Virus record (IMG/VR): IMGVR_UViG_3300037493_001709
Coordinates: 1 to 26,615 of that record
Source of the DNA: a virus
Length of the DNA: 26,615 bases
Strand: one strand, 5' to 3'
Shown here: positions 9,887 to 26,615 of the stretch, piece after piece
Layout of the letters: every line of letters starts with the position of its first letter
Position numbering within the stretch: the stretch's first letter is position 1
Notes under the pieces: model-generated
Told to the model about the DNA's origin: nothing
Databases searched by the model: none
What the model saw: only the letters and a program-made list of their open reading frames with translations
Made by a program: the position numbers and the translations under genes

Positions 9887-11101
9887 ATGTCTGAAAACCA
9901 AAGCTTGTTACACCGATTAGAAGAGTTATTAAGTCAGAAGAAAAGTAAAAAATTCTACGCTGAGAAATTAGGAATAAGTGAATATGAAGTGAATGAGCTC
10001 ATGAGAGAGCTTAAAGAAAAAGATACTGAAACTACAATAAGAAACTTTGCAGAAGAACGTAAAGTTAATCTGGAAAGAGGAACAATAGAAAGTACAATAG
10101 TTATTGACTATGAACCTAAAGATGATCTTGAACTAGCTAAGCTACACAAGATAAACTTAGATAAGTATGTAATTACAAACTACTGGTCTAAGATGTTACC
10201 AAGTGGGAAGTTTACTTCCTCAGTCTTCTCAAAAAGAAAAGAAGCAAAAGATTACTCTCCTGAAGACTTTGCTAAGTTTTTAGAAAACTACAAACCAAAT
10301 AATGTAGAGGTTAATAAACCAAAACCATCAAATCATAAAGATTATGTAGATGTAGAAATCTCTATAGCTGATTATCATTTAGCTAAGAAAACTGTAGATG
10401 GTGATAATGATCCAACAACTAGAGCTTTAAGATATATGAATGTGGCTCAGTCTTTGATTGAGAAAGTGGAAGCTAATTACAACATAAACACTGTAGTGCT
10501 TCCTATATCAAACGATTTCTTCCATACAGATAACTATCAACATCAAACTACAAACGGTACTCCACAAGATACTATAATGGATTATGCTGATGAATATGAA
10601 GTGGGATTTGCTCTTCTTGTAGATACAATTAATATGTTAAGACAACATTCCAGCACTGTAATTGTTGTTCTTGTACAAGGAAATCATGACAGAACTAAAT
10701 CTTTTTATCTAGCTCACGCATTAGATATATTCTTTAGAGAGGAGTTAGATGTACAATTTATAAGAGAACATTCTGTTGTTAAAGGATTGACATTAGGAAA
10801 TACATTTATTGGATGGCATCATGGTAACTGTAAGTTAGAAGACTTACCATTATTATTTGCAACACATCCACAATATAGTCACCAATTTGGTAATGCTATT
10901 TATAGAGAGGTACATACAGGTGATAAACATCACTATATGGCTAAAGAGGTTAAAGGAGTAAGAATACAACAAATGCCTAGTTTGTCTGGAACAGATAGAT
11001 GGCACTTAGATAATAACTTCGTACATTCAGTACGTGCAGCTCTTGCTTTAGTCTATGATCTTAATCTAGGTAAGATAGCAGAGTTTGAAACTCGAATATA
11101 A
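9887..11101 (+). CDS. Calcineurin-like metallophosphoesterase with N-terminal HTH-like region
   Basis: This encodes 404 residues. The catalytic metallophosphoesterase motifs appear in order: D162-x-H164 (ADYH), N209-D210 followed by H213, G265-N-H-D-R269, G309-W-H-H-G313, and G345-D-K-H-H349. These are the metal ligands of a two-metal phosphoesterase acting on a phosphodiester or phosphomonoester. Residues 1-45 resemble a helix-turn-helix (YAEKLGISEYEVNELMRELK), suggesting DNA binding. The combination points to a nuclease or DNA-processing role, perhaps during packaging, ejection or host DNA breakdown; the substrate is unknown. It is the first gene after a terminator and candidate promoter and is followed after 2 bases by a connector-type gene. 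The ATG at 9877 is in another frame and stops at once. Confidence 0.85.
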   Translation: MSENQSLLHRLEELLSQKKSKKFYAEKLGISEYEVNELMRELKEKDTETTIRNFAEERKVNLERGTIESTIVIDYEPKDDLELAKLHKINLDKYVITNYWSKMLPSGKFTSSVFSKRKEAKDYSPEDFAKFLENYKPNNVEVNKPKPSNHKDYVDVEISIADYHLAKKTVDGDNDPTTRALRYMNVAQSLIEKVEANYNINTVVLPISNDFFHTDNYQHQTTNGTPQDTIMDYADEYEVGFALLVDTINMLRQHSSTVIVVLVQGNHDRTKSFYLAHALDIFFREELDVQFIREHSVVKGLTLGNTFIGWHHGNCKLEDLPLLFATHPQYSHQFGNAIYREVHTGDKHHYMAKEVKGVRIQQMPSLSGTDRWHLDNNFVHSVRAALALVYDLNLGKIAEFETRI

Positions 11102-13294: not shown

Positions 13295-16200
13295 ATGGCT
13301 GATCAAAACAACGAAAATACACAAGGTAGTAATATCAAAATGGAATATGGTGTTGCTGTTTCTGGACTTAACATGGATAATACATTAAACCAAGTTAAGA
13401 CAGGAGAGTTAACATATGCATTAAATGCAGCTTTAGAAAACTTTGATTCCAGTTCTGTTAATTACCAAAATGAACAAGGTAATGAATTTTGTGTACAGTT
13501 TCCTTCAGGATATTCTTTAATAGGAACATATTTCATTAATGAAAAAAATAAACATATATTCTTTTTAGCTAACCCTACTACAGGTGGTTCTGAAATAGGA
13601 TATATGGAAAACAATGATTGTATCTATCGTGAAATAGTTAATGCTGAATGTTTAAATTTTAATATTAATTATCCAATACATAAAGCAGTACATAAGATTG
13701 GAAATTGTACTACACAAATATATTGGACAGATGGATATAATTCTAGAAGATATTTAGATATTGAAAATATTCCATATGTAGAATCTCCTTATTCAGATCC
13801 TTGTGATCCTACATATACAGATCAATTAGATTGTAATCAGTTAAAGATACAACCTAACTTTAATATTCCTCAACTTGAAGTAACTGATATACTTAATGGT
13901 GGTGATGTAACTGCTGGTACATATCAGTTTGCTGTACAATATTCTGATGCTTCTGGTAATCCATATACATCATTTTATTCTATTACCAATCCTACACCTA
14001 TGGCTGATACGCAGTTAACTACTGCTATCTTTGACTATAAGGTGGGTAGATCTATTCAGTTAACTATTACTAATTTAGATACAACAGGGTTATATAATTA
14101 TTATAACATAGCTGTTATTAAAACAATTAATAATATTGCATCTGTAGAATTAGTTGGTACTTATTCAATTGAAAATCAAGTTGACACTATAACTTACACA
14201 GGACAAAATAATACATTAATCAAATTATCTATTACAGATATATTTGAGAAATATCCTTATTATGACATTGCTCAAGATTTAACTGCTGCACAAGATGTTC
14301 TTATGTGGGATAATCTTACATCTATAGATAGAATTAACTATCAAGGTATAGCATCTAAAGTAAATTTGTTATGGGAAACATATAAAATTCCTTCTACAGA
14401 AGATTATGCAAATGAGTTCAATGCTACAAACTTACGTGGATATTTACGTGATGAGGTGTATGCATTTGAAATAGTATTCTTATTAAAGAATGGAAAACAA
14501 ACAGATGGTTTCCATATCCCTGGAAGAATATTAAATTATAATGATTTACAACTTCCAGATATTCCAGATACTAATGCTGATTTTATAGGTGAACCTACAT
14601 ACATTGACCCTGTTACAGGAATTGGATATAGTCCTTATTGGAAGATATATAACACAGCTAGTGTATTAGGACAAGCTGATGGTGATGCTATAGGTAATGC
14701 TACACCACATGAATATGGTGAATTTGCTTATTGGGAATCTACAGAAGAATATCCTTGTAACCAAGATGTGTGGGGTGATCTTGCAGGACAAAAAATTAGA
14801 CATCATAAGTTTCCAGATGTTCTTGTAAGTCCTATATTTGAAAATCCTGTATATGCACTTACACCAGATTTTCAACCACAAATGCAAAGTGATGCTGTAT
14901 ATCCAATTGGTGTTAAAGTGGATATAGGACAAATACAATCTTTAGTACAAACTTCTAATCTTACACAAGAACAGAAAGATAATGTGGCTGGATTTAAAAT
15001 TGTAAGAGGTAATAGAAATACAAATAAATCTATTGTAGCTAAAGGGATGTTGCGTAATGTAGGAACATACACAAGAGAAGACCAAACTCTTTATTATCCA
15101 AACTATCCATATAATGATCTTAGTGAAGATCCTTTTATTAATCGAAGTTCTAATTCATATAGTGTATTAGGACAGTCAAGAGTTTGGATAGTGCAATGTA
15201 AAGTAACAGGTACATACGAATATACCGATGCTGATACAGGAAAGGTGGTAAGTTGTGTTCCTATGGTTGCTGGTAAAAACTATGAGTTTTGTTCTTTAAC
15301 AAGACCAAAGTATTTAACTGGTAAAGCATGTATAGGTCCTGGAACTTATAACACTGTAATATTTAATAGAACTGCACCAATAGATACATTTAAAATGTGG
15401 GCTGATGTAGAATGGACATGTGATAATTCTGCATTAACAACATTAAAATTTGGTAGAGTTCCTTATTCTGGATATGGAACATGTAGTCTTTGTAATTCTA
15501 ATCAAAGTAATGCTTGTGGTGGCATTGTAGTTTCAAATCTTACTCCTGGAACATGGCCATATTATTTAAATGATACAACTAGTGAGTATGCTGGAAGTGC
15601 GCAAGGTGAATGTTCAATAGCACCTCAATATCCTGTCACCACTCTTGGTGAACTTCCTCCAAGATTTGTAAATATTCCGTATGGTCAGCCTGGTTATCCT
15701 CCTGCATGTAATGCATGGAGTAGAACATCTCCATTAAATGATATTTGTGGAAAGTCACAACCATTACCTGCAATTGATAAACCTGAGTCTGCATATAGAC
15801 AAGTGTTTAATTCTCCTGATACATCATTCTCACAACCTTTCTTAGGAGATATTCTTAAGTTAGAAAATGTAATGTTTGGTGGAGGAAGAGCACACTTTGT
15901 TCCAGTAAAAGGAAATGCTAAATATAGACTTCTTTCTAGAGAAGCTCAACAAGATGCATTAGATGCTTCATTTAATATTGCAAGTGGTGATATTACAGCT
16001 GTCTTTACAGCATACCAAGCATATCTAACTATTTACATAAATGGTATTACAAGAAAGAATTATGCATATTCATATAACTCTATAGCTAGTTATGATTATT
16101 ATGCACCAATAGGTAACAATGTTACAATAGGAAATCTTACTGGTATTAAACAAAGAGAACTTGATTTAAAAGCATATTTAATTCCTGGTGTACAAAATAT

Positions 16201-18283
16201 TGGAGATGATAAAAATATAAATAATTATCAAAGAGAATCATCTGTATATACAAAAACAATAGATAAAAGAAATACATTAACAGTTGAACCTCTTCCATTT
16301 CCTAATAAAACAGAAAGTCTTATAGATAGTAATGGTGATTCTTTAATATCAGATTATTCAAGATTTATTATTGGAGGACCTAATTTATGTGATCCTGCAT
16401 ATTCAATAGATTCTAAACAAAATTATTGCAACACTCCAGAAAAAGAAAGAGATATTAAAGTGGTATCTTATTATGCGTCATTAAAGAATTTATTTCCTGG
16501 TCAATGGGGACAAATATATTCTTATGAGACAATTGATACAGGATTCCAAAGAATGTTTAATGTTAGTTCTTATGCTAATGATGTTGCATTTGGTGGTGAT
16601 ACTTTTATAAGTAAGTTTGCATATAAAACAAAACTTCCATTCTTTTTAGATAATAGAGTTAATGCTCCTGATGATTCAGATATATTCTATGATGAAATAG
16701 GTAATATTGGTTATCCAAAATTTTGGCATTCTGCTAGATCTATTTTAAATACATATCGTAGTATGATAAATATTATATCAATTAAAGCACATAGTTTTGA
16801 TTGTTATAATGATCCTGCAGCTATACCAAAACAAACAGATCCTGTAGCTGGAACACTAAGAACTTTCTATGATGGTAAGTTTTATTTATTTGCATATGGT
16901 ATTCCTTATTTCTATTGTGAATCTAATTATAATGTAGACCTTCGTCAAGCATTTAATGATAGAGAAGGAAACTTCTGGCCACACGTATCTACAGGTATTC
17001 CTGATGATTGGGTACAAGAAGAATTTACAACAATTGCATACGATAATACATACTATTATAATACAACATTCTCTAGACAGAATACAGAAAACTTTTTCTC
17101 ACATCTACCAGCAGATTGGAATGATCAGTTATGTTTTACATATTATCCATTTAGAGTGGTATATTCAAATCCTCAAGATCAAAATGCTGATGTAAGATTT
17201 AATAATTGGTTAGTATATTCTCCACTATCACTATTTGATTTTCCTCAAAACTATGGTAACCTTGTATCATTAGATGGTATTCAGAATAAGGCTATACTTG
17301 CTAGATTTGAAAATAAAACATTGTTATATAACAATTTATTGACAATGAATACAAGTAATCCTCAAGCTGCTTATTTAGGTAATCCTGATATTTTTAGTAA
17401 TACTCCAATAGATTATGCTGAAACAGATCTTGGATATGTAGGAAGTCAGAATAAGTTTTTATTAAAAATTCCTCAAGGACAAGTCACTATAGATGCTAAG
17501 AGAGGGCAAGTGTTTCTTATACAAGGAACTAAAATTGAAGAGATAGCAGGATTTGGATCTGGTGTAAATAGATTTATGACAGACCACTTATCATTTGAAA
17601 TACAAAGATATTTTCCAAAAGTTGATGTAGATAATAACTTCAATGGAATTGGTTTACATGGAGTGTATGATAGTAAATTCGAAAGAGTTATAATTACTAA
17701 ACTAGATTATATTCCTATTGACAAAGATGTTAAATATGATCCTATAACAAGGGAGTTTTATGTTGAAACAGTTTATGAAATGATTGCTCCTACTACTACT
17801 AGTACTAGTACTTCTTTAACTACTACAACCACTACAACTGTTCCTTCTATAAGTTCTGGTTCAACAGAATATCAAGCTAGCGTTGATGGTAATGGATGTG
17901 ATTCAGAAGATTATCCAGTTACTAAACCAAATATTCCTTATCCTGTAGTTTTTACTAACATGTTTAATCCAACTATTTTATGGAGTGATATTGAGTATAT
18001 AGAGGTTGTAAATGTTACATCTGATGCAGGATTTGTAATTGAATATAATGGAGTTCCTGTTACATCTGGTACTCAACTATATCCTACAGGAGCATTTACT
18101 TGGGCAGATAGTATGACAATAACAAGAGATAGTTTTGATTGTACTAATACTTATGAACTATGGGATGTTAAAATAAAATTATATGACTATACTGAATTAA
18201 CAAATACTGAAACTTTTAGTATAGGTTTTGTTCAACAGTATTGTCCTGATTGTATTACAACTACCACCACCACAACTTTATAA
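13295..18283 (+). CDS. Muzzle / tail stabilization protein, N-terminal part
   Basis: This encodes 1662 residues, beta-rich and Asn/Tyr-rich. The start (MEYGVAVSGLNMDNTLNQVK, then TGELTYALNAALENFDSS) and the following propeller-like repeats match the crAss-like stabilization protein distantly related to P22 gp10, which forms the tail muzzle. Residues up to about 1497 are this core. Residues 1500-1517 are a Thr/Ser linker, 1518-1650 a separate Ig-like beta domain, and the chain ends in a Thr tail. In crAss-like phages as I know them the core continues into an FCNKSWT region and a C-terminal part. Here those parts lie in the next two ORFs, so the gene is split. The next ORF is in the same frame, five codons after a single TAA. 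Confidence 0.8.
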   Translation: MADQNNENTQGSNIKMEYGVAVSGLNMDNTLNQVKTGELTYALNAALENFDSSSVNYQNEQGNEFCVQFPSGYSLIGTYFINEKNKHIFFLANPTTGGSEIGYMENNDCIYREIVNAECLNFNINYPIHKAVHKIGNCTTQIYWTDGYNSRRYLDIENIPYVESPYSDPCDPTYTDQLDCNQLKIQPNFNIPQLEVTDILNGGDVTAGTYQFAVQYSDASGNPYTSFYSITNPTPMADTQLTTAIFDYKVGRSIQLTITNLDTTGLYNYYNIAVIKTINNIASVELVGTYSIENQVDTITYTGQNNTLIKLSITDIFEKYPYYDIAQDLTAAQDVLMWDNLTSIDRINYQGIASKVNLLWETYKIPSTEDYANEFNATNLRGYLRDEVYAFEIVFLLKNGKQTDGFHIPGRILNYNDLQLPDIPDTNADFIGEPTYIDPVTGIGYSPYWKIYNTASVLGQADGDAIGNATPHEYGEFAYWESTEEYPCNQDVWGDLAGQKIRHHKFPDVLVSPIFENPVYALTPDFQPQMQSDAVYPIGVKVDIGQIQSLVQTSNLTQEQKDNVAGFKIVRGNRNTNKSIVAKGMLRNVGTYTREDQTLYYPNYPYNDLSEDPFINRSSNSYSVLGQSRVWIVQCKVTGTYEYTDADTGKVVSCVPMVAGKNYEFCSLTRPKYLTGKACIGPGTYNTVIFNRTAPIDTFKMWADVEWTCDNSALTTLKFGRVPYSGYGTCSLCNSNQSNACGGIVVSNLTPGTWPYYLNDTTSEYAGSAQGECSIAPQYPVTTLGELPPRFVNIPYGQPGYPPACNAWSRTSPLNDICGKSQPLPAIDKPESAYRQVFNSPDTSFSQPFLGDILKLENVMFGGGRAHFVPVKGNAKYRLLSREAQQDALDASFNIASGDITAVFTAYQAYLTIYINGITRKNYAYSYNSIASYDYYAPIGNNVTIGNLTGIKQRELDLKAYLIPGVQNIGDDKNINNYQRESSVYTKTIDKRNTLTVEPLPFPNKTESLIDSNGDSLISDYSRFIIGGPNLCDPAYSIDSKQNYCNTPEKERDIKVVSYYASLKNLFPGQWGQIYSYETIDTGFQRMFNVSSYANDVAFGGDTFISKFAYKTKLPFFLDNRVNAPDDSDIFYDEIGNIGYPKFWHSARSILNTYRSMINIISIKAHSFDCYNDPAAIPKQTDPVAGTLRTFYDGKFYLFAYGIPYFYCESNYNVDLRQAFNDREGNFWPHVSTGIPDDWVQEEFTTIAYDNTYYYNTTFSRQNTENFFSHLPADWNDQLCFTYYPFRVVYSNPQDQNADVRFNNWLVYSPLSLFDFPQNYGNLVSLDGIQNKAILARFENKTLLYNNLLTMNTSNPQAAYLGNPDIFSNTPIDYAETDLGYVGSQNKFLLKIPQGQVTIDAKRGQVFLIQGTKIEEIAGFGSGVNRFMTDHLSFEIQRYFPKVDVDNNFNGIGLHGVYDSKFERVIITKLDYIPIDKDVKYDPITREFYVETVYEMIAPTTTSTSTSLTTTTTTTVPSISSGSTEYQASVDGNGCDSEDYPVTKPNIPYPVVFTNMFNPTILWSDIEYIEVVNVTSDAGFVIEYNGVPVTSGTQLYPTGAFTWADSMTITRDSFDCTNTYELWDVKIKLYDYTELTNTETFSIGFVQQYCPDCITTTTTTTL

Positions 18284-18295
18284 AAGATTAATATA

Positions 18296-19855
18296 ATGGC
18301 TGAAGATAATAAAATAAAAACAGTTATACGTACACAGGTTTATCTTAATGATCCAGACTATTTCTGTAATAAAAGTTGGACCATGTCGTATAATTTAAAC
18401 ACTGGGTCATGGATAAGCTTTCATAGCTACATCCCTAATTTCTATATAGGAGAAAATAACTTTTTCTATTCAGGACTTAATGGATGTTGCGATGATGGTG
18501 AAGCTGGTGGATTTCAAGCTATTGCTGGAGTGATGGATAATAAACCACCAACCACCACTTCTACAACAACTTTCTATCCTTCTCCTACAACCACATCTAC
18601 TTCTACAACATTTGATTGTAATATAGATGGAACGATAATTATAACAGATTGTAGTTTAGATGGTACAGCAATAATTACAGTTCCTGCTACCACAACAACA
18701 ACAATATGCCAAAGACCTTCTAGTTTATTAACACCATTTACATTTGTAGAAGGATATACATTAGCAACAGATCCAGAAGTAATATTTACTGGTAGTTTAG
18801 AAGAAGCATGTAATGCACTCCCTGCTATTAATTACATAAATGGTCTAATTGATCTAGATGGTAATTCGTTAACTACATTTAATGGAAGTGCTACTACTAC
18901 AACTACTGAATTACAACTTAATAATATAGTTTATTATGGAGATGGAACAGATTGTACACTTGTTCCTGATGGTTTCTATTTTGCATATTCTCCATTATTA
19001 ACATTTGTTTATGAAATTTCAGGAGGAGTTATTGTAGATATATCAAGTTGTGATTGTGGAACAACTAGTACAACTACAACATTGCCACCAGATGTATCAG
19101 AATGTTGTGGAATTTTATTCTCATCAGATGATAATATATATTATTCTGATCCAGCTTTTATACCTCAAGTAAATCAATTAGATGTTCCTGGATATGTATC
19201 ATCATTAGGAATAGCAATGACTGCTGATTACTTGTGGAGTATTGATACTGATATAAAAAGATGGGATATAGATCTATCTCCATTCAGTGCAACATCTAGT
19301 GGAACAATTGCTCTACCTATGGGATACACTGCAGGATTAGGAATAGTTGCTAAAAATAATGGTATACTAATTTCAACTGATACTTCTGCATCTCCAAATG
19401 ATGTAACTGAATTAGATGTTACAGGAGGAACAGCAGTATCTACAGTTATTTTTAGTTTACAAGCTAATAGAATATCTACAGGTAACATGTTGTATACAAC
19501 AGATGGTAAACTTATTATAATTAATCAAGATACACTAACATATGACAATTATGTAACTCAATATGATTATGCAACAGGAACAGTTGAAGTTGATCTTAAT
19601 ATTGGAATTGTAGCACCTACATCATTATATGAATGTAATTGTGATATATACTTAACTAATGCATTTGGAAATCTTTATACAATTATTAAAATTTATCCAT
19701 ACGTGTTACTTGATTTAGGATTCAATGTTGGTTTACCAACTAGTTCTGCAACTCAAGTAGCTAGTTGTGTAGTTAGTTCAATTACTGATAACACTACAAC
19801 TACCACTACATCAAGTTCTTCTTCTACTACAACTACAACTACAACTACCCCTTAA
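18296..19855 (+). CDS. Muzzle middle segment fused to linker, beta domains and a propeller-like domain
   Basis: This encodes 519 residues. Residues 8-60 (DPDYFCNKSWTMSYNLNTGS, then WISFHSYIPNFYIGENNFFY) resemble the segment that normally lies inside the crAss-like muzzle after the propeller core. From residue 85 onward the protein is made of Thr/Ser linkers alternating with small Cys-containing beta domains of about 40-60 residues (one holds GTDCTLVPDGFYFAYSP). A domain of about 230 residues follows (264-495) with repeated YLWSIDTD, GILIST and GKLIIINQ type strands, which suggests a beta-propeller. The C-terminus is a Thr/Ser tail. The next ORF begins 1 base after the stop. I infer a surface-exposed decoration anchored by its N-terminal muzzle segment. 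Confidence 0.65.
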   Translation: MAEDNKIKTVIRTQVYLNDPDYFCNKSWTMSYNLNTGSWISFHSYIPNFYIGENNFFYSGLNGCCDDGEAGGFQAIAGVMDNKPPTTTSTTTFYPSPTTTSTSTTFDCNIDGTIIITDCSLDGTAIITVPATTTTTICQRPSSLLTPFTFVEGYTLATDPEVIFTGSLEEACNALPAINYINGLIDLDGNSLTTFNGSATTTTTELQLNNIVYYGDGTDCTLVPDGFYFAYSPLLTFVYEISGGVIVDISSCDCGTTSTTTTLPPDVSECCGILFSSDDNIYYSDPAFIPQVNQLDVPGYVSSLGIAMTADYLWSIDTDIKRWDIDLSPFSATSSGTIALPMGYTAGLGIVAKNNGILISTDTSASPNDVTELDVTGGTAVSTVIFSLQANRISTGNMLYTTDGKLIIINQDTLTYDNYVTQYDYATGTVEVDLNIGIVAPTSLYECNCDIYLTNAFGNLYTIIKIYPYVLLDLGFNVGLPTSSATQVASCVVSSITDNTTTTTTSSSSSTTTTTTTTP

Positions 19856-19856
19856 T

Positions 19857-20723
19857 ATGACAAAAGTTATAACCATAAAATTAGTACAGACTGGACCAAA
19901 TGTTGGACCATTTGACATTACAGATATCTATGGAAACATTATAGCTGAGAATGTTTCTAGAAAAGCATTAATTCAAGGGAGGAGTTATGTTGTAGATGAT
20001 AGTGTGTACGCAGTGATATTAAAATCTACAGGTAAGTGTAATGTATCATTCACTGTAATGTTAAAAGATTTTAATATCACAGAATATGCAAATATAAAAT
20101 ACACACAATCTGTTACAGGATGTGTATGGAGACACTTAACTAATACAGAGATATATAATATATTCTATGGAACAATAGAACCATATGTTATTGAATATCC
20201 TTTTGCTTATAAGTATCAAGATGAAATTCTTCAGAATGTACAAGACTATACAAAAGCATATAAATATCTTCCTATACCTGATGGTGTATATAATGATAAT
20301 GCAAGAATAGAAACAAATGATAAATGGTTTAACAAAGCTATTCTATACAATGGACAACAAAGTTCTGGAGTGTTAGAACTTGTAGCTAAGCCATTAAATA
20401 ATTTGCAAGCTTATAATAAATATCCTATCTTTAACGCTGAAAGTAAAACCATCACTTACACTAAGAGTGATAACTTCTATCAGTATAATACATTCTGGGC
20501 ATTAGAGAAAACTTCTCAAGTTCCATTGTTTAATACATCATGTGAAAGTCTTTCAGTTGATAAAATAGTAAATCAAGCTAATATGGATTATGGACCTCGA
20601 AGCTTTAAGAAAGCTCCTCTAAGAGCTAAAGATTTAAAGGTGAGACATATTCTTGATGACAGCTCAACAACACATCTAGTGTCTCAATTCATAGTTGTTC
20701 CTTCAATGTTATCTTATAAATAA
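19857..20723 (+). CDS. Muzzle C-terminal segment preceded by a 'VGPF' domain
   Basis: This encodes 288 residues. Residues 1-72 are the small beta domain also found in the 96-residue protein at 9416. Residues 73-288 resemble the C-terminal part of the crAss-like muzzle: IEYPFAYKYQDEIL, KSDNFYQYNTFWALEK, SCESLSVDK, NMDYGPRSFKKAPLRAKDLK and the end HLVSQFIVVPSML. In intact muzzles this region is continuous with the FCNKSWT segment found here in the previous ORF. It is likely assembled with the two upstream products. The stop-start spacing TAATATG favours translation by reinitiation. The GIY-YIG gene follows 6 bases later. Confidence 0.7.
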   Translation: MTKVITIKLVQTGPNVGPFDITDIYGNIIAENVSRKALIQGRSYVVDDSVYAVILKSTGKCNVSFTVMLKDFNITEYANIKYTQSVTGCVWRHLTNTEIYNIFYGTIEPYVIEYPFAYKYQDEILQNVQDYTKAYKYLPIPDGVYNDNARIETNDKWFNKAILYNGQQSSGVLELVAKPLNNLQAYNKYPIFNAESKTITYTKSDNFYQYNTFWALEKTSQVPLFNTSCESLSVDKIVNQANMDYGPRSFKKAPLRAKDLKVRHILDDSSTTHLVSQFIVVPSMLSYK

Positions 20724-20729
20724 ATCACT

Positions 20730-21437
20730 ATGGAAAACAAATACTATTTATACAGACACATAAGACTTGATAAAAATGAACCATTTTACATTGGTATTGG
20801 TACAAAAAGAAATCATAAGCATTTTAGTTTAAAAGCAGAATATAGTAGAGCATATGAAACAAATAGAAAAGAATCCTATATTTGGAATAATATAGTTAAT
20901 AAAACTTCCTACGAAATAGAAATTCTTTTAGAATCAGATGATTATAATTTTATAAAAGAAAAAGAAATAGAGTTTATATCTTTATATGGCAGAATAAATA
21001 ACAATACTGGAATATTAACTAATATGACTGATGGAGGAGATGGGTTCATAGGTTATATACCTAGTAAAGAAAAAATTGAAAAACATAAAATATTTATGAC
21101 TGGTAGAAAACAGTCTCAAGAAGAAAAACAAAAAAGAAATGAATCAAGAAAAGGATATTTACATAGTGAAGAAACTAAACTCAAAATATCTAATTCACAT
21201 AAAGGTAAAAAAACTTCTAAAGAACATTTAGAAAAATTATACAAAGGTCAAATTTTAGCTAATTCAAAACCTATTAATCAATATGATTTAGAAGGAAATT
21301 TTATTAGAGAATGGCAAAGTGCTACTGTAGCTGCTAAGGAAATAAATTTACACCCAACATCAATAAGACATTGTGTACAGGGTAAAACAAAAACTTCTGG
21401 AGGATATATCTGGAAAGCACAAATATCATACAAGTAA
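20730..21437 (+). CDS. GIY-YIG homing endonuclease with NUMOD DNA-binding modules
   Basis: This encodes 235 residues. The GIY-YIG nuclease domain starts at YYLYRHIRLDKNEPFYIGIG (residues 5-24). E79 in KEIEFISLYGR is the probable catalytic Glu, and NMTDGGDG (98-105) is the usual loop. Residues about 126-157 (GRKQSQEEKQKRNESRKG and HSEETKLKISNSHKGK) are NUMOD3-type helices that lie along DNA. Residues about 182-231 (NQYDLEGNFIREWQSATVAA, then the SGGYIW end) form a NUMOD1/helix-turn-helix type module. It is a selfish element that cuts a specific site in genomes lacking it. It sits freestanding between the muzzle and the next virion gene, overlapping that gene's start by one base. No intron is visible around it. 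Confidence 0.92.
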   Translation: MENKYYLYRHIRLDKNEPFYIGIGTKRNHKHFSLKAEYSRAYETNRKESYIWNNIVNKTSYEIEILLESDDYNFIKEKEIEFISLYGRINNNTGILTNMTDGGDGFIGYIPSKEKIEKHKIFMTGRKQSQEEKQKRNESRKGYLHSEETKLKISNSHKGKKTSKEHLEKLYKGQILANSKPINQYDLEGNFIREWQSATVAAKEINLHPTSIRHCVQGKTKTSGGYIWKAQISYK

Positions 21438-24235
21438 TGAGTAGCGGTAAAGTAAAATGCACATGTGGATGGTCATGGAACAAATCTGATTCTAGTAAGA
21501 AAGATATGTACATATGTCATGAGTGCGGTAGAGATAATAGCAACAACATGCAGAATGGTGGTTGGTTAGATAACTATGCTGATGGTGGAACAATGCAAGA
21601 ACACCAAGAGAATTATAATGATTATAAAGTTTCTGCTCCTAAAGGAATGGTAGGAGATGGATTCTCTAATGTAGGTAGAAACTATTCTCCTGCATGGGGT
21701 GGACAGTTTCAGATGGGTGGTTCTATTCCTGGAGCTGTAGGTTTCTCATATGCACGTACAAATGATCCTGCTCCTAGTAATGGTCCTTATGCAAAGAAAA
21801 CAAAAGCTAGTGCACAAGAAGGAATTAATATAGTTCCTATAAAAGGAAGATCGCATTATAGTCCTTTATCTAATTCTATTTATTTAGATGAAACAAATGG
21901 TCCTAGTGTTAAAGGTCATGAACTTTATCATTATCAACAACATCAAGAAGGTAGAGATTTTATTCCAGAAAAATGGAATTGGGGTCCATACCTTCCACCA
22001 AGTCAACCACAGACACCATACACTGAAGAAGCTGCATCATTAGGATATAATAGAAGAAGATTAGAAGCTGAAGGTATATTACAAGATATGTATAAGTATA
22101 TGCCTGATTTACAATTTATGCCTAAAGAAGTTGTAGAAGAAGGTTTTAATCTTTCTTCAGGAATACACATGCAGGGTATTGAGGATAACATGTATGATAA
22201 TCCATATACATTAGAAGGAGAGGCAAGACTTACAGAAACTCCTGAAGGAAGACAACAATTAGAAGAACGTGGTATTGGTGTACGTCAATTTCAAAATGGT
22301 GGATGGTTAAATAAATATGATGTAGCTCAAACAGGTATGAGAATATTAAATGAAGGTGATGACTTTATGAAAAATAATTCTCGTGGTAAATTTAATAAAG
22401 CTGGAAAAGATTTAGATCAAATAATAGCTAATAATAAAGAAAGACAAAAGAATCGTGTAGTTGATATACGTCAGTCTCCTAAGAAAGCAGTTAATGATAA
22501 AATAGCAGCTTCAAAAAAATTACATACTACTGATCTAGATAAACTTAATGTAAGAAATAAAACTCAAGCAGAAATAGATGCAGAAGAAGCAGCTTATAAT
22601 AAATCTGTTGCTGAACAAAGAAAAGCTACAAGAGAAAAATCCGATGCTAATGTTTTAAATGATTGGTCAGAATTTTTTGATTCTGATAATCATACAAGAC
22701 AGAATTGGGAAGATTCAACAGCTGGTCTTGAGTCTAAGTTTAGAGTGTCTGATGAACCAAACTTTTTTGATGATTACTTGAATCCTTTTAGCATGATCGG
22801 TGGTATGGCTGCTGATCTTGGTGCTTCTCCTAATCAAGCAAAACAAACAGATAGTTACCTACCTTATGTTACAGCAATTGGTACTCCATTATTAACAGGA
22901 GCATTAGAAGGAATTGGTGCAAAGAGTAATAAAGAGTTTGTAAATAACCTTATTAATCCAGCTAACATAGTTCCTGGATATAAATCTGCTGAAAAATATT
23001 TAGCTCCAAAAATTAAAAAGACATTAGCAAAAGGTGCGTTACCTATTCTTGAAGGTGCAAAAAATTTAGAAACTTTAGGAAGAGAAGCAGTTAGAGGAAT
23101 AAACGATGCTGTTATTTATCCTATTAAATATAGAAAACAAATTGCTGATGTAAAAAAATTACATGGTGAGTTAGCTTCACAATTAGGACAAGATGAAGGA
23201 GTTAAAAGATTAAGTGGAGTGCTAGGAATAGATCCAACTAATTTAGATTATCCATCACTAACAACTTTTCCAAGAATAGGTAGTCACTATAGCCCTCGTT
23301 TGAATAATATAAATATGGACTTTAGACAACTAAATAAATTTAAAAACTCTCCTGAATTAATGCTTTCCGCAAACACAGTGCATGGTCATGAAGTTGGACA
23401 TTGGATGCAAAGAGAAGCTGATAGATTTAGTCCTAAATATAAAGAAGCATTATCTAATTATAATAACAGTAATAATAAATCAATATTTTTTGAACCTTTG
23501 CCTACATCAAACCCTACTGTAATAGATAGATTTGCACAACAATTATATGGATATGATAGAGGTACAAACATGATAGATATAAGCGATGCATTATCAAATC
23601 AAGTAGATGTAAATACATTATATGATAATGCAAAATACTTTACACATCAAGGGACAGAAGCTCTCCCACATCTTAGAGAGATGCGTCAGAACATGTTAAA
23701 TAAAGGATACATTAAAAATATATATGACCCAATTTCTGAAGAAACTATTAATAAGTTTATATCTGAAAATCCTATTGATAGAATTTCAAGTTTTACAAAA
23801 CCTGGTTCTAAACAAACAAAAGGTTTAGAAACTATATTTAGAAATCTTCCATCAGTAGTTGGTGCTGGAGCTGTAGGTACAGGTGCTGCTTATCAAATGC
23901 AAAATCAACAAGGAGCTCCACAATATGAAGAAGGAGGAGTTATTAAAGATGATCTTGGACAATGGGCTCATCCAGGAGAAATAACAGAAATCAATTCTAA
24001 TGATATAACTATGGAAGGAGTTCCATATGATGTACTTGGTATATCTGATACTGGTGATACTAAACTAATGAAACCAGGAAAGAAGTATAAGTTCAAAGGA
24101 AAGAAGGTAACAGAGTTTCCAATGGCTAAGAATGGATTAAGACAAGAACAAAAAGGTTTGGTTAATCTAGATAATCTAACTAACTTTACAAACTATAACA
24201 CAAAGCAACCAGGTGGATGGTTGGACCAATACTAA
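21437..24235 (+). CDS. Large virion protein with zinc ribbon and two HExxH metallopeptidase-like domains
   Basis: This encodes 932 residues. C8-x-C10 and C27-xx-C30 form a zinc-ribbon start (KCTCGWSWNKSDSS, then ICHECGRD). Two HExxH motifs follow: H161-E-L-Y-H165 and H651-E-V-G-H655. Each is preceded by a matching stretch (RSHYSPLSNSIYL and GSHYSPRLNNINM), so the domains appear duplicated. Possible third metal ligands are E197/E198 and the Glu in TEALPHLREMR. Short motifs NGGWLDNY (40-47), NGGWLNKY (287-294) and GGWLDQY (926-932) and the C-terminal region GQWAHPGEITEINSNDITME (about 842 on) are features I associate with crAss-like virion or cargo proteins. Long charged helices lie at about 310-430. 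It may be an ejected protein that cleaves host or virion protein. The ATG overlaps the upstream stop. Confidence 0.75.
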   Translation: MSSGKVKCTCGWSWNKSDSSKKDMYICHECGRDNSNNMQNGGWLDNYADGGTMQEHQENYNDYKVSAPKGMVGDGFSNVGRNYSPAWGGQFQMGGSIPGAVGFSYARTNDPAPSNGPYAKKTKASAQEGINIVPIKGRSHYSPLSNSIYLDETNGPSVKGHELYHYQQHQEGRDFIPEKWNWGPYLPPSQPQTPYTEEAASLGYNRRRLEAEGILQDMYKYMPDLQFMPKEVVEEGFNLSSGIHMQGIEDNMYDNPYTLEGEARLTETPEGRQQLEERGIGVRQFQNGGWLNKYDVAQTGMRILNEGDDFMKNNSRGKFNKAGKDLDQIIANNKERQKNRVVDIRQSPKKAVNDKIAASKKLHTTDLDKLNVRNKTQAEIDAEEAAYNKSVAEQRKATREKSDANVLNDWSEFFDSDNHTRQNWEDSTAGLESKFRVSDEPNFFDDYLNPFSMIGGMAADLGASPNQAKQTDSYLPYVTAIGTPLLTGALEGIGAKSNKEFVNNLINPANIVPGYKSAEKYLAPKIKKTLAKGALPILEGAKNLETLGREAVRGINDAVIYPIKYRKQIADVKKLHGELASQLGQDEGVKRLSGVLGIDPTNLDYPSLTTFPRIGSHYSPRLNNINMDFRQLNKFKNSPELMLSANTVHGHEVGHWMQREADRFSPKYKEALSNYNNSNNKSIFFEPLPTSNPTVIDRFAQQLYGYDRGTNMIDISDALSNQVDVNTLYDNAKYFTHQGTEALPHLREMRQNMLNKGYIKNIYDPISEETINKFISENPIDRISSFTKPGSKQTKGLETIFRNLPSVVGAGAVGTGAAYQMQNQQGAPQYEEGGVIKDDLGQWAHPGEITEINSNDITMEGVPYDVLGISDTGDTKLMKPGKKYKFKGKKVTEFPMAKNGLRQEQKGLVNLDNLTNFTNYNTKQPGGWLDQY

Positions 24236-24241
24236 TAAACT

Positions 24242-26615
24242 ATGAAATCACAAATCTTAAAAATTGCAGGAGTTAAATCTGAAAAGGAATTCTACAAGAA
24301 ATATCCAACAGAAGCAGCTTTCTTTAAAGCTCATCCTGAAGCTAAGTCTATTAAGAAAGCACAGTCAGGATTTAATACTGATTCTAATAATAATGGTATT
24401 CCAGATTATTTAGAATTAAATCCTCCTACTTCTAATCAAGCATTTGGTCCACAGAATCAATGGAACTTTGGTAGTAACATGTCATCCACTCCATCATTTG
24501 GTGCACCTAGTGTACAACAAATGGCTGGTAACACTTTCCAATCTTCAGGAGATCCTTTTGCTATGCAAAACTATGGTCAACAATGGGGACAACAAAATCC
24601 ATTACCAGCTAACAATCCTAACTCACAATTCTCTAATAGTGTATTTCAAGAAAATACATCTGTAACAGGTGGACTTGGTAATAAAAATTATAAAGGTAGT
24701 GGTCAAGGATTTAATTTTCAAGGTTTTGGAAATGTATTCAGTGGTGCAGTTGGAGGATTCCAAAAACTTAAAGCACAAAAAGAATTAACTAAAAAATTAG
24801 AAACTTGGGCTAATGTTAGTGATGTAGTTAAGAAAGCTGGTATATCAAATGCTTATGCTGAAAAACCAAAACGTCAATGGCTTAGACCAGATGATAAAAG
24901 ATTTATTAATAGTGCTAGTGAAAAATACAATACACAAGGAAGAGGAACAGATATATTAGCTACACAAAATGGTGGAGGTATTGGAGGTAATCCAACAGAA
25001 GTACAAAATACATATGCTCCTGAACATACATTATTTGATGATCTTGGTTATGAACCATTAAAAGATAGTCAACAATTAAAAGCATTTGCAGGTGGTGGTG
25101 GTTTTGGATCTATGTGGGGACAAGCTAATGCTGGATTAAGTGGAAACAACAATACAAGCTTTATGAGTAATGTAGGACAAGGAAGTCCTTTTGATTCTTT
25201 AGTTGGTGGAATGTTTGGTAATAATGCAGGAAGTCAAATTGGTGGTTCTCTTGGTAGTTTATTTGGACCAGCAGGATCATTGGCTGGTACAATGATTGGT
25301 GGTTACTTTGATAAAGAACCAGGTAAACAAGCTTTTCAACAAGGTAGAATAAATGCAAATAATGATTTTCTAAGTAGATTAGATATAGCTAATGGAATAA
25401 CTAGTGGATTAAGTTCAATGCATGTTGGTGAAAATGGAGCAAACCTAGATGGTGGATGGGTATCTCATGATTGGCAGCCACAAGTAATTGCTACATTTGG
25501 TGAACATAAAGTTAAAGACTTATTAAGACCTCCTCATGATGCAGATATGTTAAGAGCTGGTGGACACTTAAGAGAATACACTGCTCCTAGCGAAAGAGCT
25601 ATGCAGACTTATGAGAATGGTGGAGGAATAACTTCTTATGCTATGGGTGGACAACTTAAAACTCATTGGGGTGGAGAAGCTAGACCTATTGCTCAAAATC
25701 CTTATTTACCAGGATCTGGTGAAATAGTTATGCTTGATGGAGCTTCTCATAATAATGATGGTATTGGTATTAGTTATAGTAATGCTCAAAATGGTATGGA
25801 AGTAGATGCTCAAATAGAAGCTGAAGGAGGAGAACCAATTATTGAATTACCTAGTAATGATGGATCATCTACAGAAGCTGTAGTGTTTGGTAATATACCA
25901 TTTAGTAAAAAAGTAGCAGATGCTACAGGAGATGAATCTCTTATAAATCTTGCTAAGAAATATGATGGTAGAACATATAAATCAATAGTAGCAAATTTAG
26001 GTAAACAACAAAACAAAGCAAATAAGACTAAACTTAAAGCTACTGATTTAGCAAACAACTCAGATGATAATACTCAATGGGGAGAACTTGATAGAAAGAC
26101 TGCAGAGATGATGCTTAATGGTGCTGACAGTACTCTTAAAAATTATGCTGATGATATAATGAAGTTAGCTAAATTACAAAATGCTACACAAGATGTTAAA
26201 AAAGAAGTATCATATATGAAAGGAAAAAATATAAGTGCTGAAGCATTAGGTAAAGGTAAAATAGAAAATGACTATGATCCTATTACTAAAGATGCTGAAA
26301 TAGAAAACCCATATGCTAAGTCTGGAGCATTTTTAAGAAAAGCTCAAAGTGGTAATAAAGTTGTAAAAGGAAGAGGTGATAAATGGAGTTATACACAAGC
26401 TGGTAATACAGGTAATCCTGTATGGGATGATATGCAACGTTATGAGCAAGAGTGGACACCATCTGTACAAAAAGCTTTATCTGATAAGGAGAGAGCTAAG
26501 AAGATGCTTGACTATATAAATAATTCTACTGGAGAAGAAAGTGCAAAAGTTAAAAAGAGTCTTAATAAATTTAGTACAGAAGAAGATAAAGTTAAGTTCT
26601 TGATGACACAAGGAA
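24242..26615 (+). CDS. Giant virion / cargo protein, N-terminal part (runs off the window)
   Basis: The frame is open from the ATG at 24242 to the right edge, 791 codons without a stop. The start (KSQILKIAGVKSEKEFYKKY, then PTEAAFFKAHPEAKS) is a helical N-terminus I associate with large crAss-like virion proteins. D47, N49, N51, G52, D55 and E58 (DSNNNGIPDYLE) look like a calcium-binding loop of dockerin or thrombospondin-3 type. Residues 75-170 are Asn/Gln/Gly-rich. Residues about 319-358 form a glycine zipper (GSQIGGSLGSLFGPAGSLAG), suggesting membrane insertion. SGEIVMLDGASHNNDGIGIS (near 496-515) and GGEPIIELP resemble a conserved domain seen in Bacteroidetes phage structural proteins. 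Later parts are charged helices. It is likely packaged and ejected with DNA. Confidence 0.65.
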   Translation, partial: MKSQILKIAGVKSEKEFYKKYPTEAAFFKAHPEAKSIKKAQSGFNTDSNNNGIPDYLELNPPTSNQAFGPQNQWNFGSNMSSTPSFGAPSVQQMAGNTFQSSGDPFAMQNYGQQWGQQNPLPANNPNSQFSNSVFQENTSVTGGLGNKNYKGSGQGFNFQGFGNVFSGAVGGFQKLKAQKELTKKLETWANVSDVVKKAGISNAYAEKPKRQWLRPDDKRFINSASEKYNTQGRGTDILATQNGGGIGGNPTEVQNTYAPEHTLFDDLGYEPLKDSQQLKAFAGGGGFGSMWGQANAGLSGNNNTSFMSNVGQGSPFDSLVGGMFGNNAGSQIGGSLGSLFGPAGSLAGTMIGGYFDKEPGKQAFQQGRINANNDFLSRLDIANGITSGLSSMHVGENGANLDGGWVSHDWQPQVIATFGEHKVKDLLRPPHDADMLRAGGHLREYTAPSERAMQTYENGGGITSYAMGGQLKTHWGGEARPIAQNPYLPGSGEIVMLDGASHNNDGIGISYSNAQNGMEVDAQIEAEGGEPIIELPSNDGSSTEAVVFGNIPFSKKVADATGDESLINLAKKYDGRTYKSIVANLGKQQNKANKTKLKATDLANNSDDNTQWGELDRKTAEMMLNGADSTLKNYADDIMKLAKLQNATQDVKKEVSYMKGKNISAEALGKGKIENDYDPITKDAEIENPYAKSGAFLRKAQSGNKVVKGRGDKWSYTQAGNTGNPVWDDMQRYEQEWTPSVQKALSDKERAKKMLDYINNSTGEESAKVKKSLNKFSTEEDKVKFLMTQG

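Follow-up and report, generated by a model that had tools for sequence, protein, structure and literature searches.

Analysis of a 26,615-nucleotide stretch of viral DNA (the window; positions 1 to 26,615 of IMG/VR record IMGVR_UViG_3300037493_001709) reveals a single open reading frame (ORF) on the plus strand at 21437-24235. It encodes a modular protein of 932 residues with two zincin-like domains and has a close relative, L001. With a probability of about 0.6, we read it as a crAss-like virion protein in which a scaffold carries exchangeable enzyme cassettes, here two zincins of different families, and which is ejected. Relatives were collected with a profile of the C-terminal 66 residues (window and L001), which gave 274 confirmed IMG/VR relatives, and 80 of the 274 were examined. 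After removal of 7 duplicates and 3 fragments shorter than 300 residues, 72 unique proteins were kept: 70 from loci chosen by this signature and not by zincin content, the window protein and L001.

The window protein contains a zinc ribbon and two zincins, that is, one kind of enzyme. The N-terminal ribbon, already noticed in an earlier note on this DNA, follows from the cysteine pattern C8-x-C10 ... C27-x2-C30 (21458-21526), which is present in 32 of the 72 unique relatives. Two scaffold motifs follow. GRNYSPAWGGQF covers residues 80-91 (21674-21709), and its pattern is found in 39/72 relatives. GGSIPGAVGFSYART...KKTKASAQ covers residues 93-129 (21713-21823), is 89% identical to L001 across 37 residues, and has a KT..SAQ pattern shared by 44/72. 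Glycine-rich linker motifs recur between the cassettes in the scaffold. An apolar Gly/Ala-rich segment precedes domain 2 (residues 447-493, 22775-22915), with a Kyte-Doolittle peak of 1.09, under the typical transmembrane value. Behind the second cassette lies a trailer motif (residues 792-828, 23810-23920), followed by the 66-residue C-terminal scaffold signature (23927-24124).

The two HExxH motifs lie exactly where the earlier note had placed them. HELYH occupies residues 161-165 (21917-21931) of domain 1 (residues 130-280, 21824-22276), and HEVGH occupies residues 651-655 (23387-23401) of domain 2 (residues 557-807, 23105-23857). The HYSP segment described ahead of each is present at residues 140 and 617. 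From the composition of the window protein 0.02 HExxH would be expected. Among the 72 unique proteins 42 HExxH are found in 33 members, seven of which have two or three, while in 300 rounds of residue shuffling the count averaged 0.76 and never exceeded 4; chance occurrence of the motif is rejected on this comparison. The control patterns HExH, HExxxH, HExxxxH, HDxxH and HQxxH occur 0, 3, 0, 0 and 1 times in the same set. Together with the family conservation, the profile matches and the mostly zincin structural neighbours described below, this bears out the proposal of two zincin-type domains, and we regard their zincin nature as very probable.

Domain 2 belongs to a family of six sequences (window, L001, L104, L105, L081 and L009) in which H651, E652, H655 and E741 are all kept. 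L105 carries its member within a 2256-residue protein without the scaffold signature, so the family also occurs outside signature-bearing proteins. A hidden Markov model (HMM) of zincin modules was built from 17 other modules without window sequences, and proteins were searched with the scaffold signature masked. It finds domain 2 with an independent E-value of 1.5e-8, and HEVGH and TE741 align with the HExxH and PTExxAR of the modules. Both zincins of gp42 of Cellulophaga phage phi17:2 are found as well (2.3e-7 and 2.9e-15), and there are no matches among reversed sequences. Relatedness is judged by this masked HMM. Neither an unmasked HMM nor a single-linkage clustering that sorted 48 modules into 9 clusters is relied on for it, since in both of them segments running into the scaffold signature may inflate the result. 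In hhalign the domain-2 family pairs with the zincin module profile at a probability of 94.5. The alignment and its invariance in 6/6 sequences support E741 (23657-23659) as the predicted third zinc ligand, in agreement with the suggestion that TEALPHLRE, at residue 740, supplies it.

Domain 1 has a family of 12 sequences, the window counted, with H161, E162, H165, E210, E260 and E262 invariant; a single-sequence scan with the domain finds no relatives. Loss of the His or Glu in close homologues, which had been named as a possible refutation, is seen in neither family, as H, E and H are invariant in 12/12 and 6/6. TEEA at residue 196 had been offered as the third ligand of domain 1 and is rejected, since it is not kept among the domain-1 relatives. 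The two rival candidates are E210 (22064-22066) and E260 of the LEGEA segment (22214-22216). In hhalign, E210 comes opposite the Glu of the PTExxAR motif in other modules (probability 65.8). In the last part of the structural alignment with IrrE (3dte), E260 instead falls on Glu113 of IrrE, provided that the final helix has no gap; with 3dti it is one residue off. The ligands of IrrE are described as His82, His86 and Glu113 (PMC5552922).

The earlier note saw the two domains as a duplicated pair. A common core of about 45 columns stands (hhalign, 45 columns, probability 73.9), but the two C-terminal halves are unlike each other, and each domain comes with a separate set of relatives. A plain internal duplication was considered and rejected, as BLAST gives 17/48 identities over the HYSP-HExxH core only. 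Judged by their alignments, the two domains are distinct families sharing a core. In the AlphaFold2 models (mean predicted local distance difference test scores, pLDDT, of 69.8 for domain 1 and 67.3 for domain 2) three short strands are followed by the HExxH helix and further helices. In VIA-align, HExxH-type enzymes or ArdC/IrrE, judged by titles, make up 16/22 rows for domain 1 (best Z 4.6) and 19/22 for domain 2 (best Z 5.2). ArdC is among the closest small solved folds to both models, with Z of 4.6 and 4.9, respectively. IrrE/PprI and the minigluzincins (jannalysin, abylysin and selecase) are near folds at Z of about 2 to 4.5; all neighbours of domain 1 are weak. These proteins differ from the window domains in having no sequence match to either domain profile and in their low Z, and a PDB sequence search with either profile gives no credible match. 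Foldseek yields nothing at E<=0.001 for either model. In a BFVD search with domain 2 nothing reaches E<=0.001 either, and the best two entries, cr125_1 (0.01) and a phi4:1 structural protein (0.035), are both crAss-like.

The gene occupies a fixed place. The scaffold signature is present in a single copy per record in 19/19 records searched. The ORF for the C-terminal part of the muzzle lies upstream in all 76 loci reaching that far, within 10 nucleotides in 63 of them, and a second long conserved ORF lies downstream in 71/71. Thus the studied gene stands among late virion genes. A 25-sequence signature profile matches 4 of 8 records, including Lbo-JY46 and phi17:2, and finds no match in the record of L105. 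A signature scan of genome contigs gave 83 pattern stretches and no confirmed relative. For the window protein a PHROGs search gives a chance-level match only, and whole-protein tblastn against a phage collection no match.

What the slot carries is variable. Pfam was run on the 71 unique relatives of at least 200 residues (10, 31 and 30 proteins, some again singly), and many of them have no match. ART-PolyVal, an ADP-ribosyltransferase (ART) domain, is over the curated cut-off and localised in L027, L058 and L086, and a fourth ART member is seen by Pfam with its position in the protein not localised. His_Phos_1 is over the cut-off in L040, L045 and L078, GNAT in L071, LysM in L009 and L079, and Amidase_2 in L079. 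Below the cut-off are GNAT in L068, SprT-like matches (5 and 1 members), M91 (L064) and DUF6973 (L036). Some members combine cassettes: L079 has HExxH, LysM and Amidase_2, and L086 has HExxH and ART-PolyVal. By record, ART-PolyVal is over the cut-off in 4/21, with that of L043 at a place other than the studied gene. This extra match lies in a 2160-residue frame (G006:C1:34863-35531).

Close comparisons show the exchange itself. In the nearest relative, L001, the ribbon, domain 2 (84%) and the C-terminus are retained, but other modules stand where the window protein has domain 1. Its first module (L001:2548-7092) reads EEVGH at the expected HExxH and may be an inactive zincin. L041, a relative of 376 residues, is without either zincin. 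Upstream, the flanks of L071 and L081 share 99.0% identity over 3 kb; downstream, they share 98.7% over the 89% of 3 kb that aligns. The first ~420 residues of the two proteins agree at 97.6%, and both proteins have a common scaffold at the end. After residue ~420, L071 carries a GNAT and L081 a zincin of the domain-2 family (phmmer with window domain 2, E 4e-7). This is a recent swap of zincin for GNAT. The trailer LPAxxPxxxGLGAASQ follows zincin and ART cassettes alike; its profile, built from six of its 15 matches or their near copies, matches 15/72 members and 0 reversed sequences, and its hydrophobicity is under the usual transmembrane value.

The earlier note had placed the gene among virion genes of a crAss-like phage. 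Muzzle matches to Lbo-JY46, phi17:2 and csAssE-Sib agree with the phage assignment, and an annotated counterpart agrees with the virion assignment. The product gp41 of phage phi4:1 adjoins the muzzle gene, and its record notes 'structural protein ... experimental MS/MS proteomics analysis' (MS/MS, tandem mass spectrometry). It is identical to phi17:2 gp42 (739 residues) at 729/739 positions. The latter has HExxH at 384 and 627 and Phage_lysozyme2 at 12-153, and by this identity phi4:1 gp41 should carry two zincins and a lysozyme. Like the window gene, both counterparts come directly after the muzzle gene and have two zincins matched by the same HMM. Unlike the window protein they have an N-terminal Phage_lysozyme2, and they are annotated merely as tail or structural protein. 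The Lbo-JY46 counterpart XAI97386 (495 residues) has the scaffold signature (E 2.5e-26) and also lies directly after the muzzle gene, but it differs in having no HExxH and a weak, sub-threshold SLT/transglycosylase match (E 0.0011). By analogy with phi4:1 gp41 the window protein is likely a virion protein.

The best reading of the window gene is a crassvirus form of the 'polyvalent' virion proteins. Polyvalent proteins as described by Iyer et al. 2017 (PMC5512222) combine zincin metallopeptidases (MPTases), ARTs, GNATs and lysozyme, and are predicted there to be packaged and ejected. As in the window, these are large multidomain phage proteins, and one protein may have several MPTases. What differs here, relative to that account, is the single-copy gene with a fixed place after the muzzle, a constant scaffold and swapped cassettes; this crassvirus slot would be the new element. 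The main text of PMC5512222 has 0 occurrences of 'crAss' and 0 of 'phosphatase', and His_Phos_1 occurs in relatives of the studied gene. A constant scaffold with exchanged effector cassettes also resembles, by analogy, the polymorphic toxins, from which the present case differs in being a virion gene with cassettes that are internal as well as towards the C-terminus. In the open-licence literature no paper was found on zincins in crAss-like phages, and 'polyvalent protein' has 0 occurrences among the papers listed for crAss-like phages, although an earlier account elsewhere is possible. For crAss-like metallopeptidases, one of the papers listed has an unrelated catalogue entry, and for crAss ADP-ribosyltransferases with polyvalent proteins none of the matches listed describes the studied gene. 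The words protease, peptidase and polyvalent do not occur in the main text of Yutin 2021.

In the mechanism that we propose, the scaffold would consist of the zinc ribbon, the glycine-rich linker motifs, the trailer and the C-terminal signature, and the enzyme cassettes would be exchangeable. The protein would be packaged in the particle and then ejected with or before the DNA. Early in infection the zincins would cut host proteins, or free other parts of their own protein. NAD+ and acetyl-CoA, used by relatives of the ART and GNAT cassettes, suggest the cytosol as the place of action. Ejection into the host is probable in our view, and the chances that the zincins act on proteins there are about even.

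Several observations weigh against this reading. At default filter settings, L001 and further domain-2 relatives escaped the zincin HMM. Switching the filters off brings L001 to 4.6e-7, L009 to 0.0013 and L104 to 0.0056, and L105 and L081 remain >0.1. In the profile searches that the earlier note called for, the zincin module HMM finds domain 2, and Pfam gives for the window protein only Zn_peptidase_2, sub-threshold at E 0.05 over 616-679. MPTase-PolyVal (PF18818) is over the curated cut-off in 0/21 records and is not among the Pfam matches of the window protein at E<=10. The structure predictions that the note had also called for return mostly zincin neighbours for both domains, but both models are of middling confidence, and a Z of 5.2 at most can reflect merely a common arrangement. 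Among the 8 records searched with the signature profile, csAssE-Sib, Fpv3 and crAss001 have no match, and in phi17:2 the signature is in the next gene and not in the zincin gene. The virion location of the window protein would rest on the phi4:1 counterpart, and for the window protein itself we infer ejection, catalysis and target.

The zincins might instead process the phage's own proteins: the scaffold could cleave itself, or neighbouring cargo could be trimmed, either in the course of assembly or once ejected. For P1 DdrB and other polyvalent proteins, such processing has been suggested as the role of their MPTase domains (PMC5512222), and the repeated glycine-rich linker motifs between the scaffold cassettes would fit it. 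We nevertheless consider it unlikely. With 39/72 unique members lacking HExxH, zincin cleavage cannot be a shared maturation step, and both the wide variety of cassette families and the replacement of a zincin by GNAT in the near-identical phages L071 and L081 argue against a fixed maturation role. That the zincin folds are catalytically dead and serve as binding or structural modules is highly improbable: degenerate forms do exist in the set (EEVGH in the first module of L001, QEVRH in L017), but H, E, H and the candidate Glu are invariant in both window families.

An envelope-breaching tail lysin, whose zincins would clear a path for the DNA by cutting periplasmic proteins or the peptides of peptidoglycan, draws on the neighbours in the slot. 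Phage_lysozyme2 comes after the muzzle gene in phi17:2 gp42 and in a csAssE-Sib protein, the Lbo-JY46 counterpart joins the scaffold signature to its sub-threshold transglycosylase match, and Amidase_2 and LysM occur in L079 and LysM in L009. Lysozyme, SLT-like and amidase domains, all peptidoglycan hydrolases, occupy this slot or occur in its protein, which leaves some room for a cell-wall role. We still judge the tail lysin quite improbable, because the ART and GNAT cassettes would depend on cofactors of the cytosol and because 67 of the 71 Pfam-scanned members, in a generous count at E<=0.05, are without a recognised wall-enzyme or LysM domain beyond L009 and L079. Moreover, most peptidoglycan endopeptidases of phages are of the M15, M23 or NlpC/P60 types and not HExxH zincins. 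Among the targets listed in the earlier note, peptidoglycan cross-bridges rank last, since in other phages this slot holds enzymes with relatives that work on NAD+ or acetyl-CoA.

Returning to the scaffold with exchangeable cassettes, a wider extension can be offered tentatively: this fixed single-copy virion gene could be a general platform for effector delivery in one branch of crAss-like phages. The ribbon, linkers, trailer and 66-residue signature would then serve for packaging and ejection, and any inserted enzyme, whether zincin, ADP-ribosyltransferase, acetyltransferase, phosphatase or wall hydrolase, might be carried through the tail into the bacterium. By analogy with polymorphic toxins, the cassettes might turn over faster than the remaining genome. 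crAss-like phages are abundant, and to our knowledge little is known of what their virions deliver beyond RNA polymerase and channel proteins. From one fixed gene in which cassettes are exchanged, a list of candidate early-infection effectors could be drawn up, and such exchange would explain why the slot looks different in every genome. The reading is testable in the cultured relatives phi4:1 or phi17:2 on Cellulophaga baltica.

By its muzzle protein and gene order, as read from the window genes, the phage appears to belong to Crassvirales. A 1662-residue ORF at 13295-18283 matches the muzzle-position proteins of Lbo-JY46, Cellulophaga phi17:2 and csAssE-Sib. The ORF at 18296-19855 matches residues 1408-1455 of the Lbo-JY46 muzzle (BLAST), and that at 19857-20723 on the plus strand matches its C-terminal part (29% to residues 1463-1654, E 2e-22). 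As the three match successive pieces of one protein, the muzzle is encoded here in three ORFs (13295-20723), unlike in phi17:2, Lbo-JY46 and csAssE-Sib, where it is a single gene. A GIY-YIG homing-endonuclease-like gene (20730-21437; phrog_314, E 7.5e-22) lies between the muzzle C-terminal ORF and the studied gene. It is also found upstream in L018/L020 (93.5% amino acid identity), L038 (73%) and L048 (35%), and was not found at that spot in the remaining loci.

The next long ORF (24242-26614, plus strand) is cut by the window end and is the one with a homologue downstream in 71/71 loci. In crAss001, gp45 and gp46 follow the muzzle gene gp44, and the downstream ORF of the window occupies the position of gp45. 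A label of 'C1 homologue' for it was dropped, as there is no BLAST match to crAss001 gp45 at E<=0.01. Both gp45 and gp46 are described as cargo (PMC10172136). Upstream of the muzzle gene in csAssE-Sib, L005:290-751 is annotated as a periplasmic metallopeptidase / effector / toxin and has HEEAH at 42. Within the structural block of the window, a protein of the DNA repair exonuclease type is encoded at 9887-11101 (phrog_704, E 4.1e-52). Poly-Thr/Ser tracts lie inside or at the C-terminus of many ORFs between 2217 and 19855 and are possibly linkers or recombination points.

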